Positions 10,800 to 14,954 of a stretch of 64,000 nt of DNA are shown one piece after another. The notes below the pieces were generated by a model that was not told where the DNA came from, searched no databases, and saw only the letters and a list, made by a program, of their open reading frames with translations. The translations under genes were made by a program, and so were the position numbers. The stretch is from Kitasatospora sp. NBC_00374. Lineage in GTDB: Bacteria > Actinomycetota > Actinomycetes > Streptomycetales > Streptomycetaceae. Within the stretch, counting starts at the first letter, position 1; the number at the start of each line of letters is the position of its first letter. Location of the stretch: positions 2,232,001-2,296,000 of the forward strand of contig NZ_CP107964.1 in the NCBI RefSeq assembly GCF_041434935.1, read 5' to 3'.

Positions 10800-11444
10800 T
10801 CAGTCCGCGGCGATCCGGACCGCGAAGCCGGCCAGCGCCGTGCCCATCGCGTACCGGTGCAGGCGCTGCCAGAGCGGGCGGCGGTCGAAGAAGCCCGACA
10901 CCGAGGCGGCGGTCACCACGAAGAAGGCGTTGCCGAGCAGGCCGACCACGATCTGGGTCAGCCCCAGCACCAGGCTCTGCAGCGCGACATGGCCGCGCTG
11001 CGGGTCGACGAACTGCGGCAGCAACGACACGTAGAGGATCGCGAGCTTGGGATTGAGCAGGCAGGTGAGCAGGCCCATCAGGAACAGCCTGCGCGGCCGG
11101 TCGGGCGCCAGCTCCCGGGTCGCGAACACGGACCGGCCGGACGGCCGCACAGCCTTCCAGGCCAGCCAGAGCAGGTAGCCGGCGCCCGCGACCTTGAGCG
11201 CGACGTACAGCTCGGGCACCAGCGCGAACACGGCGGAGATCCCGGCGGTGGCCGCCAGCAGGTAGAACAGGAAGCCGGCTCCGACCCCGCAGAGCGAGAT
11301 CAGCCCGGCCCGGCGGCCCTGGGACACCGAGCGGGACACCAGGTAGATCATGTTCGGTCCGGGGGTGAGCACCATGCCGGTCGCCACCGCCGCCATACCC
11401 GCTATCGCCGCCGGATCCAGCACACCCGCCCCGTTCCTGATCAT
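10800..11444 (-). CDS. LysE-family amino-acid exporter
   Basis: About 214 residues with six predicted membrane segments and the LysE/RhtB signature TPGPNMIYLVSRSVSQGRRAG near the N-terminus, followed by GLLTCLLNPKLAIL, also highly typical. Family members export amino acids or their analogues using the proton gradient. The start is uncertain: ATG 11444 is used here, ATG 11480 lies further out, and GTG 11423 has a GGGGCGGG just upstream and gives the usual family N-terminus. The gene reads away from the tRNA group. Confidence 0.9.
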   Translation of the reverse strand: MIRNGAGVLDPAAIAGMAAVATGMVLTPGPNMIYLVSRSVSQGRRAGLISLCGVGAGFLFYLLAATAGISAVFALVPELYVALKVAGAGYLLWLAWKAVRPSGRSVFATRELAPDRPRRLFLMGLLTCLLNPKLAILYVSLLPQFVDPQRGHVALQSLVLGLTQIVVGLLGNAFFVVTAASVSGFFDRRPLWQRLHRYAMGTALAGFAVRIAAD

Positions 11445-11544
11445 TCGCCCACGCAACGCCCAGACGGTAGCACCCGGCATCGGGAAGGGCCGCGATTATC
11501 CGCTTCCCGGCCTCGCGATCAGGGCGTTAGCATCCCTGTCAGCC

Positions 11545-11620
11545 CCCGGGCGTGGGCGCAGAGGCAGACGCCGCCGCGACGGCATCGCGGAGCACGCCGG
11601 TTCGAATCCGGCCCCCGGGA
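11545..11620 (+). tRNA. tRNA-like gene, anticodon GGC (Ala-like, atypical)
   Basis: A complete cloverleaf can be drawn: D arm 555-572 (GGCG/CGCC), anticodon arm 11574-11590 (CCGCG / loop ACGGCAT / CGCGG), 5-base variable loop, T arm 11596-11612 with canonical TTCGAAT loop, and discriminator A620. The acceptor is odd: eight bases 5' (CCCGGGCG) face CCCCGGG, giving either 7 bp with one bulged C or an 8/4 acceptor/T-stem with a C-C mismatch. Position 33 is C, not the near-universal U, and the G3:U70 pair required by alanyl-tRNA synthetase is absent. A TAGCAT box (11528-11533) sits correctly for a promoter. It may be a special-purpose or decaying tRNA. Confidence 0.6.
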
Positions 11621-11628
11621 GGCACCAT

Positions 11629-11702
11629 GGGCCTCGTAGCACAGCGGCAGGCGCACCGCCCCGCACGGGCGGGACACGCCGGCTGGACTCCGGCCGGGCC
11701 CG
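11629..11702 (+). tRNA. tRNA-like gene, anticodon GCA (Cys-like, degenerate)
   Basis: It begins 8 bases after the first tRNA-like gene and is related to it. Anticodon arm 11656-11672 is CCGCC / loop CCGCACG / GGCGG, giving GCA. The D arm GCAC-AGCGGCAG-GCGC has one A-C mismatch. The T stem GCCGG/CCGGC is perfect, but the loop is CTGGACT, so T54 and the C56 that pairs with G19 are lost. The acceptor 5' strand GGGCCTCG faces CGGGCCC with a bulge, the same defect as its neighbour, and C again occupies position 33. It ends just before the SDR gene's ribosome site. I doubt it decodes normally. Confidence 0.4.
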
Positions 11703-11727
11703 CACCAGGACGACGGTCGGAGGGGTT

Positions 11728-13101
11728 GTGCCGCAGTACCCGGCGCCGGACGAGGCGGAACTCGAGGCGTACGCCGAGACGGTGGGGCGGCTGCGCCGGC
11801 TTGCCGCGGACCACCCCGTGCGGCTGCACGCCGAGAAGATCGCCGAGTCCTTCGTCCGGGAGGGCCGCCGCAGCCGCCGTCAGACCGGCCGTGACGCCCG
11901 CACCCGGGGCGATGCCGAACTGCTCGCCGCCACCGCGACCGGCGCGATCGACCGGCGCGAGGACGCCCCGCTCGTCCGGCCCGCGCGGGCGGCACCGCTC
12001 GGCGAACTCAGCCGGGCCCGTCGCTGCTATGTCTGCAAGTCGACATACCGTCAGGTGGACGGTTTCTACCACATGCTCTGCCCCGGCTGCTCGGCCGACA
12101 ACACCGCCCGGCGGGGGCTGGCCACCGATCTGCGGGGCCGGCGGGCCCTGGTCACCGGCGGCCGGGTCAAGATCGGCTTCCAGCTCGCCCTGATGATGCT
12201 CCGGGACGGCGCCGAACTGATCGTCACCAGCCGTTTCCCGCACGACACCGTGCGCCGGTTCCGGGCCACCCTCGGCAGCGAGCGCTGGCTGGACCGGCTC
12301 ACCGTGGTCGGCATCGACCTGCGCGACCCGCGGCAGGTGCTCGGCCTGTGCGAACGGCTGCGCGCCGACGGCCGGCCGCTGGACATCCTGGTCAACAACG
12401 CCGCCCAGACCCTGCGCCGCCCACCCGAGTCGTACGCCCTGCTGGCGGCCGGCGAGCACGGGGAACTCCCGCGCGGCTGCACGGTCGCGCATGCCCCGGG
12501 CTTCCGGCCGATGCCGGCCCTCACCGCCGCCTGGCCGGTCACCGGGCTGGCCCCGACCCTGCCGTCCGGCGAGGTGCTGGCGCTGGCCGACGAGGCCGGG
12601 CTGCTGCCCGACACCGCCGCCGACAACTCCTGGTCCGCCACGCTCGGCGGCCTCGACCCGGCCGAGGTGCTGGAGACCCAGCTGGTCAACGCGCTCGCCC
12701 CGGCGCTGCTCTGCGACCGTCTGCTGCCGCTGCTGCTGGCCTCGCCGCACGCCGCCCGCTACATCGTCAACGTCACCGCCGTGGAGGGGCGGTTCGCCGT
12801 CCGCAACAAGACCGCGGGCCACCCGCACACCAACATGGCCAAGGCCGCGCTGAACATGCTGACCCGCACCAGCGCCACCGAACTGGCCCGTCAGGGCGTG
12901 CACATGTGCGCGGTCGACACCGGCTGGGTGACCGACGAGAACCCGGCCCCGAAGAAGTCCCGGATCGCCGGCACCGGCTTCCGCACCCCGCTCGACATCG
13001 TCGACGGCGCGGCCCGGGTCTACGACCCGATCGTCCGCGGCGAGGCCGGATCCCCCGTCTCCGGCGTCTTCCTGAAGGACTACCGGGAAGCCGCCTGGTG
13101 A
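11728..13101 (+). CDS. Zinc-ribbon short-chain dehydrogenase-like protein between tRNA genes
   Basis: The 457-residue protein has a helical N-terminal part (1-90), a Cys4 ribbon (CYVCK ... LCPGC, about residues 99-119) and a Rossmann domain (about 130-457) with VTGGRVKIG and the NNAAQ strand. In place of the catalytic YxxxK it has HTNMAKAALNM, so Thr occupies the Tyr position; in my memory this HTNMAK form is conserved in the family, found in bacteria and plants with no established role. The GTG at 11728 has GGAGG four bases upstream. It is bracketed by two tRNA-like genes upstream and tRNA-Trp 23 bases downstream, on the same strand, suggesting one transcript. Confidence 0.85.
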   Translation: MPQYPAPDEAELEAYAETVGRLRRLAADHPVRLHAEKIAESFVREGRRSRRQTGRDARTRGDAELLAATATGAIDRREDAPLVRPARAAPLGELSRARRCYVCKSTYRQVDGFYHMLCPGCSADNTARRGLATDLRGRRALVTGGRVKIGFQLALMMLRDGAELIVTSRFPHDTVRRFRATLGSERWLDRLTVVGIDLRDPRQVLGLCERLRADGRPLDILVNNAAQTLRRPPESYALLAAGEHGELPRGCTVAHAPGFRPMPALTAAWPVTGLAPTLPSGEVLALADEAGLLPDTAADNSWSATLGGLDPAEVLETQLVNALAPALLCDRLLPLLLASPHAARYIVNVTAVEGRFAVRNKTAGHPHTNMAKAALNMLTRTSATELARQGVHMCAVDTGWVTDENPAPKKSRIAGTGFRTPLDIVDGAARVYDPIVRGEAGSPVSGVFLKDYREAAW

Positions 13102-13124
13102 CCCGGTAGAGTCGCCCTCCGGGC

Positions 13125-13196
13125 GGGGCCGTAGCGCAGAGGCAGGCGCAGCGGTCTCCAGAACCGCGAACGCCGGTTCGAATCCGGTCGGCCCCG
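13125..13196 (+). tRNA. tRNA-Trp (CCA), non-standard body
   Basis: A clean 72-base cloverleaf: perfect 7-bp acceptor GGGGCCG/CGGCCCC, D arm GCGC-AGAGGCAG-GCGC, anticodon arm GCGGT / CTCCAGA / ACCGC (anticodon CCA, U33 present), 4-base variable loop and T arm with TTCGAAT. Discriminator G73 agrees with bacterial tRNA-Trp identity; CCA is not encoded. The body does not look like the usual streptomycete tRNA-Trp that I know near secE, and its D and T arms closely match the two tRNA-like genes upstream of the SDR gene. It starts 23 bases after that gene's stop codon. Confidence 0.85.
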
Positions 13197-13215
13197 CCTC
13201 CGGCTCCGGGCCCGC

Positions 13216-14211
13216 TCACCGGCGGGAGGCGGCGAAGACCTCCATCCAGTACCGCTGGTGGTCCTCCGAGGCCCCGACCAGGTAGGTGGAGCGGAGCTTG
13301 GGCGGAAGCAGTGCCACCAGCCGGGTGACCGCCGCCCGGTGCCTGCGCAGCTGGGAGAGTTCGGCGTTGGCGATGGCCTGGTGGACCAGGTCGGTGTCGT
13401 TGGCCCCCTCGGTGGACTGCTCGGCCGCGCTCCGCAGCCGGGCCTCCCAGGCGGGAAGTTCCCGGGCGATCTCCCGCAGACCGGTGGCCCGGCGGCCGGC
13501 GAGGCGGTCGAGCTGGGCGGTGAGCGGCACCGGGGCGTACTCCCCGTCGCCGAGGTAGACCGTGCCCATCTCCAGGGGCAGGCCGCGCCCGTGGAGTTTG
13601 ATGAGGCGTTCCATGGTGCGCTTGCTGATCCAGGCCCGGCCGTCCTCGTCGAGGTCGTTCTTCCACCACTCCAGGACGGTCTCCGCGACGGTGCCGTAGC
13701 GGGCGATCAGCCACTCGTTGGCCGGGATGTCGGCCGGGTCGATCCGGAGGGAGACGGTGAACCGGGTGGCCTGGGCGATGTTGTTGCGGGCGACCTGGAG
13801 CTTGCGGCCGAGGTGGTAGGGCGGATTCTGGAGGCGACGGCCGCCCGGGCAGGCTGCGCACCCGCTCCGGCGACGGACCGGTGAGGGCGCGCCGCACCCT
13901 CCGGTCGGCGGGGCCACCGAACCGCAGGCCCTCCGCCACGTCCCACTTCAGTCCGGCCAGCAGCTCCGCCATCCCGTACAGGATCCGGTTGACCTCGGGG
14001 TCGTCGGCCTGGAGCAGCCAGTACCGGACGGACGCCGGGGCCTCCCGGACGGCCTGCCGGAAGCGGCCGTCCGGTGTGCTGGGCGGCCACGGTCCGACCG
14101 GGCCGCCCGCGGGTCGATCCCCAGCCGCGCGCAGACCCGCTCCCGGGCCCCCGGTCCCGTCCGGCGCAGCAGGAACCGGACCGCCTCGGCGGTCGCCTCG
14201 TCCAGTGCCAT
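13216..14211 (-). pseudogene. Unidentified gene with two apparent frameshifts
   Basis: Protein-like sequence continues leftwards through three frames. It begins MALDEATAEAVRFLLRR at 14211, shifts near 14090-14130 into ASVRYWLLQADDPEVNRILY..., and shifts again near 13830-13850 into RLQNPPYHLGRKLQVARNN, ending MEVFAASRR at 13216. The joined product would be about 330 residues, soluble, helical, rich in Leu and Arg. I do not recognise the family. Either the gene is recently broken or the assembly has two indels in GC-rich runs. The last 230 residues form a long intact frame, which favours a recent event. Confidence 0.6.
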
Positions 14212-14384
14212 GATCCGCCCCACCCCTGTCGCTGCGGCACATGATGCCAGGTCGTCCCGGGTCGGCCGGACGATTATCGGGGCCGGCCGGCCGCGGGCTC
14301 ACCGGCCCTCGGCGGAATGAGTCGCACACATCCGTGGGCATGAATTCCACCGTGGAACGCGCACGGGAGGATTACGATCAATCG

Positions 14385-14954
14385 ATGACGGACACAACCG
14401 ACAGAGCAGGGGAACTCGCGGACCTCGCGGCCCGGTTCCCGAACCTGCACGCGCCCCAGCGCTGGGCCTGGGGCGGGATCGACGCCCAGTTCTCGGCGGA
14501 GCTGCCGCCCGATCAGTTGATCACCAACATCCACCTGGTGGGCTTCGCCGACGGCGGGGTGGTGCTCTGCCGCGACGTGCGCGGCCACTGGTTCCTGCCC
14601 GGCGGTACCCGGGAGGCAGCCGAGAGCATCGAGTGCTGCCTGGTCCGCGAGTTGCGCGAGGAGGCGGGCGCGCGGCTGGTCGGACCGCCGGTGTGGATCG
14701 GTGCGCACCGGGCCGTCACGGACACCCCGGAGCCGTACCGCCCGTGGCAGCCGCACCCGGAGAAGGCCTGGCTGTGGGGCTGGGCCGAGGTGGAGGTGGA
14801 CTCCTCCCCGACCAACCCGGACGACGGCGAGCAGGTCGTCGAGGTCCGGGCGGTGCCGCCGGCCGAGGCGCGGCTGCTGCTGGAGCACGGCCGGGAGGCG
14901 TGGTGGGGCGAACTGGTCGACCTGGCCGTGGAGTCCCGCACCCGGGCCGCCTGA
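14385..14954 (+). CDS. Nudix hydrolase
   Basis: A 189-residue protein with a complete Nudix box, GGTREAAES...RELREEAGA, matching Gx5Ex7REUxEExGU. Such enzymes cleave nucleoside diphosphates linked to another moiety using Mg2+. Unlike compact Nudix proteins it has an extra N-terminal helix (ELADLAARFPNLHAPQRW) and a tryptophan-rich HPEKAWLWGW strand after the box. ATG 14385 has GGGAGG about 12 bases upstream; ATG 14340 is an alternative start. The substrate is unknown. Confidence 0.88.
   Translation: MTDTTDRAGELADLAARFPNLHAPQRWAWGGIDAQFSAELPPDQLITNIHLVGFADGGVVLCRDVRGHWFLPGGTREAAESIECCLVRELREEAGARLVGPPVWIGAHRAVTDTPEPYRPWQPHPEKAWLWGWAEVEVDSSPTNPDDGEQVVEVRAVPPAEARLLLEHGREAWWGELVDLAVESRTRAA

Follow-up and report, generated by a model that had tools for sequence, protein, structure and literature searches.

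tRNA-like genes with a constant body and exchangeable anticodon arms at a conserved SDR locus of Actinomycetota: candidate tRNA mimics

The window analysed here is a stretch of 64,000 nucleotides from Kitasatospora sp. NBC_00374, in which ARAGORN predicts exactly three tRNA-type genes, all on the plus strand. A sequence-only reading of this DNA had described three related tRNA-shaped genes with the anticodons GGC, GCA and CCA bracketing a zinc-ribbon SDR gene between positions 11545 and 13198, and the ARAGORN predictions confirm that description. The D-arm and T-arm letters said to be common to the three genes are indeed shared, the genes are paralogues as proposed, two of them precede the SDR gene, the third starts 23 bases past its stop codon, and the arrangement is as unusual as had been claimed. 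The features of the locus are given in the table below.

Features of the tRNA-like/SDR locus, in coordinates of the window
Feature	Position	Strand	Evidence
Promoter-like site before the array	11504..11533	+	-35 TTCCCG 11504-11509; -10 TAGCAT 11528-11533
tRNA-like 1, anticodon GGC (Ala)	11545..11620	+	ARAGORN; family model 66.7 bits at 11544-11622; fold
tRNA-like 2, anticodon GCA (Cys)	11630..11703	+	ARAGORN; family model 58.8 bits at 11628-11704
SDR-fold protein, 457 aa	11728..13101	+	Pfam PF00106/PF13561; alignment of 17; predicted fold and PDB matches
tRNA-like 3, anticodon CCA (Trp)	13125..13198	+	ARAGORN; Rfam RF00005 60.7 bits; family model 80.3 bits
MoxR-like ATPase remnant	13219..13833	-	residues 424-628 of 628; tblastn E=1e-97

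In the GGC copy the anticodon loop reads ACGGCAT, with C in place of U at position 33, and the acceptor helix has one mismatch, its outer pairs being GCC/GGC. The GCA copy also carries C33 and has an aberrant T loop (CTGGACT), which makes it the most degenerate copy in the window, and the CCA copy forms a clean cloverleaf with an acceptor helix of about 11 bp. The comparison with Rfam by Infernal, which the sequence-only reading had suggested, upheld the tRNA assignment for the Trp copy alone, as this is the only copy in the window that passes the RF00005 threshold; cmscan did not report the Ala and Cys copies even at E<=1. The three copies were also scored with a family model built from 50 relatives and are among its best seven matches in their own genome; the other high matches checked there (Val and Arg) are ordinary tRNAs. 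The promoter-like site before the array has a predicted start at about 11541; such sites were called by the -35/-10 consensus.

The SDR gene reads from a GTG codon at 11728 to a TGA codon at 13099-13101, and its product has N-terminal helices and a CxxC...CxxC zinc-ribbon-like motif. The structure model and the PDB matches confirm the SDR fold and nothing beyond it. The usual catalytic motif of SDRs is YxxxK. At this site (residues 368-372, window 12829-12843) the protein reads TNMAK, as do 16/17 aligned relatives, the remaining one (L077) having TSVSK; judging from this motif, the protein may therefore not be a standard reductase.

The MoxR remnant, which is all that is left of the ATPase and corresponds to its C-terminus, is 74% identical to a Streptomyces copy, and the LRR and vWA genes found at related loci are lost. 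Since these genes and most of MoxR have disappeared while the SDR gene and the RNAs have been kept, the window probably holds a local, partly decayed form of a wider locus, and the system here is probably reduced or decaying. A probable remnant of a protein of about 300 residues, which flanks the vWA gene in Streptomyces, lies on the minus strand at 13976-14170 (35% identity, E=3e-4). The locus is flanked by a LysE-type transporter gene (10803-11480, minus) and a NUDIX gene (14334-14954, plus), and no link between either of these and the locus was found.

Across Actinomycetota the wider locus consists of one or more tRNA-like genes, the SDR gene, an LRR gene, a convergent pair encoding a MoxR-like ATPase and a vWA/DUF2201 protein, and a further tRNA-like gene beyond. 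The third gene of the window is part of this larger locus, which the sequence-only reading had missed. The Pfam results for five locus proteins are DUF2201, AAA, LRR, desaturase and none. All parsed copies share the strand of the SDR gene; the downstream copy is typically about 2.8 kb away (median of 30 copies), and the first downstream copy has the anticodon CCA in 26/30 parsed cases. ARAGORN predicts tRNA-type genes at 21/30 SDR loci of the genus (the own genome counted among them), and 20 loci carry a family copy, the predictions L016 at 3665 and L027 at 588 having been excluded by inspection as non-family. Decayed copies occur within the genus as well (L010, L018 and L020). The anticodons at these loci differ between species, and SDR orthologues that are 70-82% identical adjoin copies with different anticodons. 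Because the anticodons vary in this way while the SDR remains similar, we rejected the suggestion of the sequence-only reading that the genes are a dedicated tRNA supply for the product of the SDR; the own genome, moreover, already has ordinary tRNAs for GGC, GCA and CCA.

When named genomes were scanned for the pattern, 81 stretches were positive, belonging to Streptomyces, Kitasatospora, Streptacidiphilus, Actinacidiphila, Actinospica, Amycolatopsis, Lentzea, Saccharothrix, Kutzneria, Kibdelosporangium, Allokutzneria, Actinoplanes, Murinocardiopsis and a record named Streptosporangium. The tRNA-SDR-tRNA arrangement is thus found in many genera and is not confined to one strain. An SDR relative is present in 76/81 of these stretches; the other five are the far end of the same locus (L118), a stretch with only the flanking desaturase gene (L134) and three orphans (L083, L099 and L107). 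LRR genes occur in at least 44 of the 81 stretches, MoxR genes in at least 37 and vWA genes in at least 29, these being lower bounds because each stretch spans at most 8 kb. Kitasatospora paracochleata DSM 41656 (L078) has a complete locus, with six copies.

The distribution is nevertheless patchy, since the family model matches 81/297 genomes of the host's taxonomic family and 15/296 of the class at E<=1e-11. Within the genus, tRNA-like genes scoring above 55 bits were found at 25/50 SDR loci. They are present at all 14 loci with a trace of LRR, MoxR or vWA and at 11/36 others (Fisher p=1e-5, uncorrected for shared ancestry). A strong vWA match was found in 27/200 genomes of the taxonomic family, with 18 matches at 72% identity or more. 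Of the latter genomes, 17/18 appear in the family-model search, and the 18th (G033) has a copy of 61.5 bits. The genomes of nine diverged vWA homologues (64-69% identity) have no family-model match, which indicates that the MoxR-vWA pair also exists without tRNA-like genes; SDR and LRR genes were sought at eight of these nine loci and were absent from all eight.

Conversely, strict exclusivity of the tRNA-like genes to the SDR locus had to be rejected, as there are orphans that lack the protein genes (L083, L099, L107, L243-L250, L252, L254 and L255). Those at L243-L250 (at about position 2000) are Trp(CCA) family copies from several Streptomycetaceae, in which the core is very constant and no neighbouring genes are shared. 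The orphan of Streptomyces piniterrae (L099:1773) lies about 1.2 kb from a gene whose product, judged by eye, resembles a caspase-type conflict protein. A link to the SDR paralogue of about 51% identity was likewise rejected, as no tRNA-like gene was found near L035, L036 and L268, nor, with ARAGORN, near L186, L270 and L271.

Few genes are as conserved as those for tRNAs, whose anticodon arms differ very little from one related species to the next. In the slot nearest to the SDR gene (U1, 70 copies), the D and T arms have pairwise identities of 0.95 and 0.96, compared with 0.68 in the anticodon stem and 0.46 in the anticodon itself. A cloverleaf with conserved D and T loops is present in the family, the Cys copy of the window with its aberrant T loop aside. 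Covariation of the cloverleaf amounts to 0.460 vs 0.137 in shuffles (0/500) in an alignment fitted to the model, and to 0.378 vs 0.133 (0/500) in a separate calculation, which indicates that the cloverleaf, anticodon stem included, has been kept by compensatory changes. Given this strong covariation and the recurrence of the arrangement in many genera, the trio in the window is, on these comparisons, not a product of chance.

The anticodons themselves are restricted. C35 or C36 is present in 152/152 parsed copies at 77 loci vs 19/37 ordinary anticodons of the own genome, the parsers behind the copy counts dropping any copy with fewer than 4/5 anticodon-stem pairs or a poorly paired acceptor. 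The anticodons stand for Ala, Gly, Ser, Glu, Asp, Cys, Val and Trp, apart from a few calls that are Arg-type or odd. The anticodon arm also resembles the arm of the host tRNA that shares its anticodon: 9.27/14 positions are alike vs 7.77 after permutation (0/2000), and 8.72 vs 7.75 without Trp (0/2000), although the copies are related by descent, so that the permutation figures overstate their independence, and all hosts are represented by the ordinary tRNAs of a single Kitasatospora genome. In nine copies the whole 17-base arm is identical to that of an own-genome tRNA, and the common loop of Ala GGC copies, ATGGCAT, equals that of the host tRNA.

In several respects the copies depart from ordinary tRNAs. 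When several registers were tried for both copies and ordinary tRNAs, the acceptor helix was at least 3 pairs too long in 99/175 scored copies vs 0/44 ordinary own-genome tRNAs, and 47 copies had no extension; over half of the copies thus lack the usual 7-bp acceptor stem with a free 3' end. Position 37 is a pyrimidine in 39/149 copies (C in 36, T in 3) vs 0/43 ordinary arms, and a purine in the other 110/149, and U33 is present in 127/149. With respect to the identity-element rules for tRNAs, G3:U70 occurs in 1/38 Ala copies, a long variable arm is missing from the 17 Ser copies (region lengths 22-23), and Gly and Cys copies do not have the U73 of host tRNAs. Among strict 7-bp copies, on the other hand, Asp copies have G73 in 4/4 cases and Glu copies A73 in 3/4, like host tRNAs. 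In this strict set the discriminator follows the anticodon in 14/26 unique copies vs 8.4 after permutation (48/5000), and looser definitions give 355/5000 and 706/5000, which are not significant. Since the discriminators of 7-bp copies agree with those of host tRNAs, the copies nearest to the SDR gene may be chargeable, and the copies with long acceptors look closed.

Most array-leading copies have a promoter-like site of their own, which lies 5-12 bases upstream of the helix in 35/39 such copies (U2) at named loci vs 3% of shuffles, and one was seen before 16/30 downstream copies. In two stretches (L057:5174-5280 and L118:7666-7742) a run of eight T comes after the downstream Trp-type copy, and because of this the long acceptor helix of the copy may double as a terminator.

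Judging from primer sequences, one member of the family has been described before under another heading. The tRNA-Asp-AUC of Streptomyces violaceusniger SPC6 is reported to be expressed constitutively in two species, to let GAU repeats be translated in an eGFP test and to raise the output of several antibiotics (Chen et al. 2022, PMC9262613). Its neighbours are genes for a gala leucine-rich protein and for a MoxR-like ATPase, and, according to the same report, it was found in 32/4649 streptomycete genomes with no homologues elsewhere. Its qPCR primers, compared by eye, contain the family D arm GTAGCGCAGAGGT and T arm GTTCGAATCCGACC; because they do, tRNA-Asp-AUC is, by its primer sequences, a member of the family, and its anticodon obeys the restriction described above as well (C36). 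The LRR and MoxR genes beside the tRNA are a further likeness, the window keeping only the MoxR remnant. In the accessible sections PMC9262613 treats the gene as a single decoding tRNA and does not recognise a wider family; other anticodons, other genera, the SDR gene and long acceptors go unmentioned there. Literature searches, judged mostly from titles and abstract openings, turned up no paper that we recognised as describing the family.

The explanation that we favour, tentatively and with less than even confidence, is that these RNAs would be trans-acting tRNA mimics, serving as bait, decoy or sensor of anticodon arms and working with the SDR, LRR, MoxR and vWA proteins. On this view each member of the family is a small RNA shaped like a tRNA, whose D and T arms make up an unvarying body and whose anticodon arm, open to exchange, would imitate the arm of a cellular tRNA. 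Such RNAs would act in trans, their constant elbow being gripped by a locus protein, probably the LRR, SDR or vWA protein, while the exchangeable arm would be presented as bait, decoy or sensor to an attacker or reader of such arms in tRNAs, an anticodon nuclease being one candidate; the MoxR/vWA pair would then act on the resulting complex. In support of mimics are the covarying cloverleaf, the promoter-like sites, the restricted anticodons, the host-like arms, the constant D and T arms, the long acceptors, the pyrimidines at position 37, the strand shared with the SDR gene, the conserved locus and the co-retention of tRNA-like genes with LRR, MoxR and vWA genes in the genus, and the RNA of one member is made constitutively by others' report (PMC9262613). 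As far as sequence can tell, the constant elbow, host-like exchangeable arms, closed acceptors and co-retention fit mimics better than ordinary tRNAs. Against this explanation, the reported decoding of GAU by tRNA-Asp-AUC needs no decoy (PMC9262613), the discriminator follows the anticodon in strict 7-bp copies, and both orphan RNAs and vWA homologues in genomes without a model match exist. Neither a nuclease nor any known defence gene could be identified at the locus, where PADLOC gave no full-length match and only short, weak matches to ATPase domains.

The main rival, that the copies are supplementary decoding tRNAs, comes close behind the mimics because decoding by one member has been reported and the discriminator tends to follow the anticodon, and we regard it as somewhat unlikely. 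Here the RNAs would be trimmed, CCA-tailed and charged according to their anticodons, boosting particular codons, and the protein genes would be unrelated or regulatory. The reported expression of tRNA-Asp-AUC in two species, its reported efficient reading of GAU repeats and the match of its primers to the family D and T arms (PMC9262613) argue for decoding, as do the many loops with U33 and purine 37, the host-identical Ala loop and the discriminators of strict 7-bp Asp and Glu copies. It is harder to reconcile with the ordinary tRNAs that the host already has for the three anticodons of the window, with the missing identity elements of Ala, Ser, Gly and Cys copies, with pyrimidine 37 in about a quarter of the copies and with an acceptor helix that is closed and too long in more than half. 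A split of roles is possible, in which 7-bp copies are charged and long-acceptor copies are uncharged. If mimicry is true, antibiotic-producing bacteria would have an RNA-based means of surveying or protecting their tRNA pool that had not been recognised before; if decoding is true, the family would be a large, lineage-specific set of supplementary tRNAs able to retune translation. Under either reading a published tRNA becomes part of a system whose partners can be named, and of a family that exchanges its anticodon arm yet keeps its body, within a restricted anticodon set and beside a conserved protein locus.

Three further explanations seem less probable. The array lies directly upstream of the SDR gene in the same orientation, and a promoter-like site immediately precedes its first copy. 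This would suit cis-acting leader elements, in which tandem tRNA shapes at the 5' end control the SDR-LRR transcript via RNase P/Z or synthetase binding; we consider this unlikely, given the further copy far downstream, often with its own promoter-like site, the orphans with no adjoining SDR gene, and interchangeable anticodon arms for which a leader has no obvious need. That the copies are selfish or decaying paralogues, spread by duplication or marking an integration site without a function in the cell, is quite unlikely: the patchy distribution, the decayed copies, the orphans and the ancestral integrative element suggested in PMC9262613 are in line with it, but compensatory changes in the anticodon stem, D and T arms constant across many genera, co-retention with protein genes and the restricted anticodon set argue otherwise. 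Programmed mistranslation, whereby a constant body charged with one amino acid would insert it at different codons through a variable anticodon, is very unlikely. It would account for the constant body and variable anticodon and for the few copies that carry the identity elements of the amino acid named by their anticodon, but the acceptor stems and discriminators are not constant, the acceptor helices are long, and the published AUC member is interpreted as inserting Asp (PMC9262613). 

As for the tRNA mimics, the fuller proposal that the locus is a new RNA-protein surveillance or defence system seems rather doubtful to us; a small set of rapidly re-armed mimics would be held at the elbow by SDR/LRR, together with MoxR/vWA, their arms would serve as bait or sensor, and the anticodon set would track the tRNAs attacked in each lineage.

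Ro60 contains a vWA domain. The bacterial Y RNA (YrlA) with its partner Ro60/Rsr resembles the present locus in that a tRNA-like module is part of a noncoding RNA encoded beside the protein, and a possible inhibition of an anticodon nuclease has been suggested for YrlA (PMC7790460). Unlike that system, the vWA protein here is DUF2201-like, Pfam shows no TROVE domain among the five locus proteins, no RtcA/RtcB was seen at the locus, and the copies are multiple with exchanged anticodon arms. The pairing of MoxR-like ATPase and vWA genes is also seen in vWA-MoxR conflict systems of multicellular actinobacteria, for which the portion of the source available mentions no tRNA-like RNA, SDR or LRR (Kaur et al. 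2020, PMC7159879). With respect to the vWA-MoxR ternary system described there, the MoxR-like and vWA/DUF2201 components are present at our locus and no evident counterpart of the named third core component was recognised. Phage tRNAs that evade anticodon-cleaving defences are similar in being additional tRNAs that are useful on account of their anticodon region (PMC11555353, as far as its accessible text goes), but they are viral, whereas the exact family pattern is absent from IMG/VR.

A phage origin was rejected, as the exact pattern has no occurrence in IMG/VR and the SDR and MoxR proteins have no match in the phage collection. PHROG profiles did match the SDR, vWA and ATPase proteins, and the predicted structure of the vWA protein (pLDDT 53) was too poor for use. 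An SDR-LRR tandem was seen at a probable prophage edge on a possibly cyanobacterial IMG/VR contig (IMGVR_UViG_2687453458_000001, L269:1-2460), which looks like host DNA beside an integrase.

The SDR-LRR combination seems to occur in Deinococcota and Cyanobacteria as well. On a plasmid of Deinococcus sp. KNUC1210 (NZ_CP092194.1, L267) a tRNA-Ala(TGC)-like gene (47.4 bits) comes before an SDR gene whose product is 52% identical, and after the SDR gene comes an LRR fragment, identified by eye. A search for plain anticodon-arm hairpins upstream of the SDR gene at 57 loci gave none, the searched stretch being misplaced where the alignment starts late, as at the Deinococcus locus, for which it was redone. 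Two strong hairpins (z -5.2 and -4.7) lie there at L267:7583-7780, beside the tRNA-Ala-like gene and upstream of the SDR gene. In this one case the hairpin loops, CUGCUAA and CUCCAAC, are like the anticodon loops of Ser-GCU and Trp-CCA, and the hairpins might be minimal anticodon-arm mimics or just terminators.
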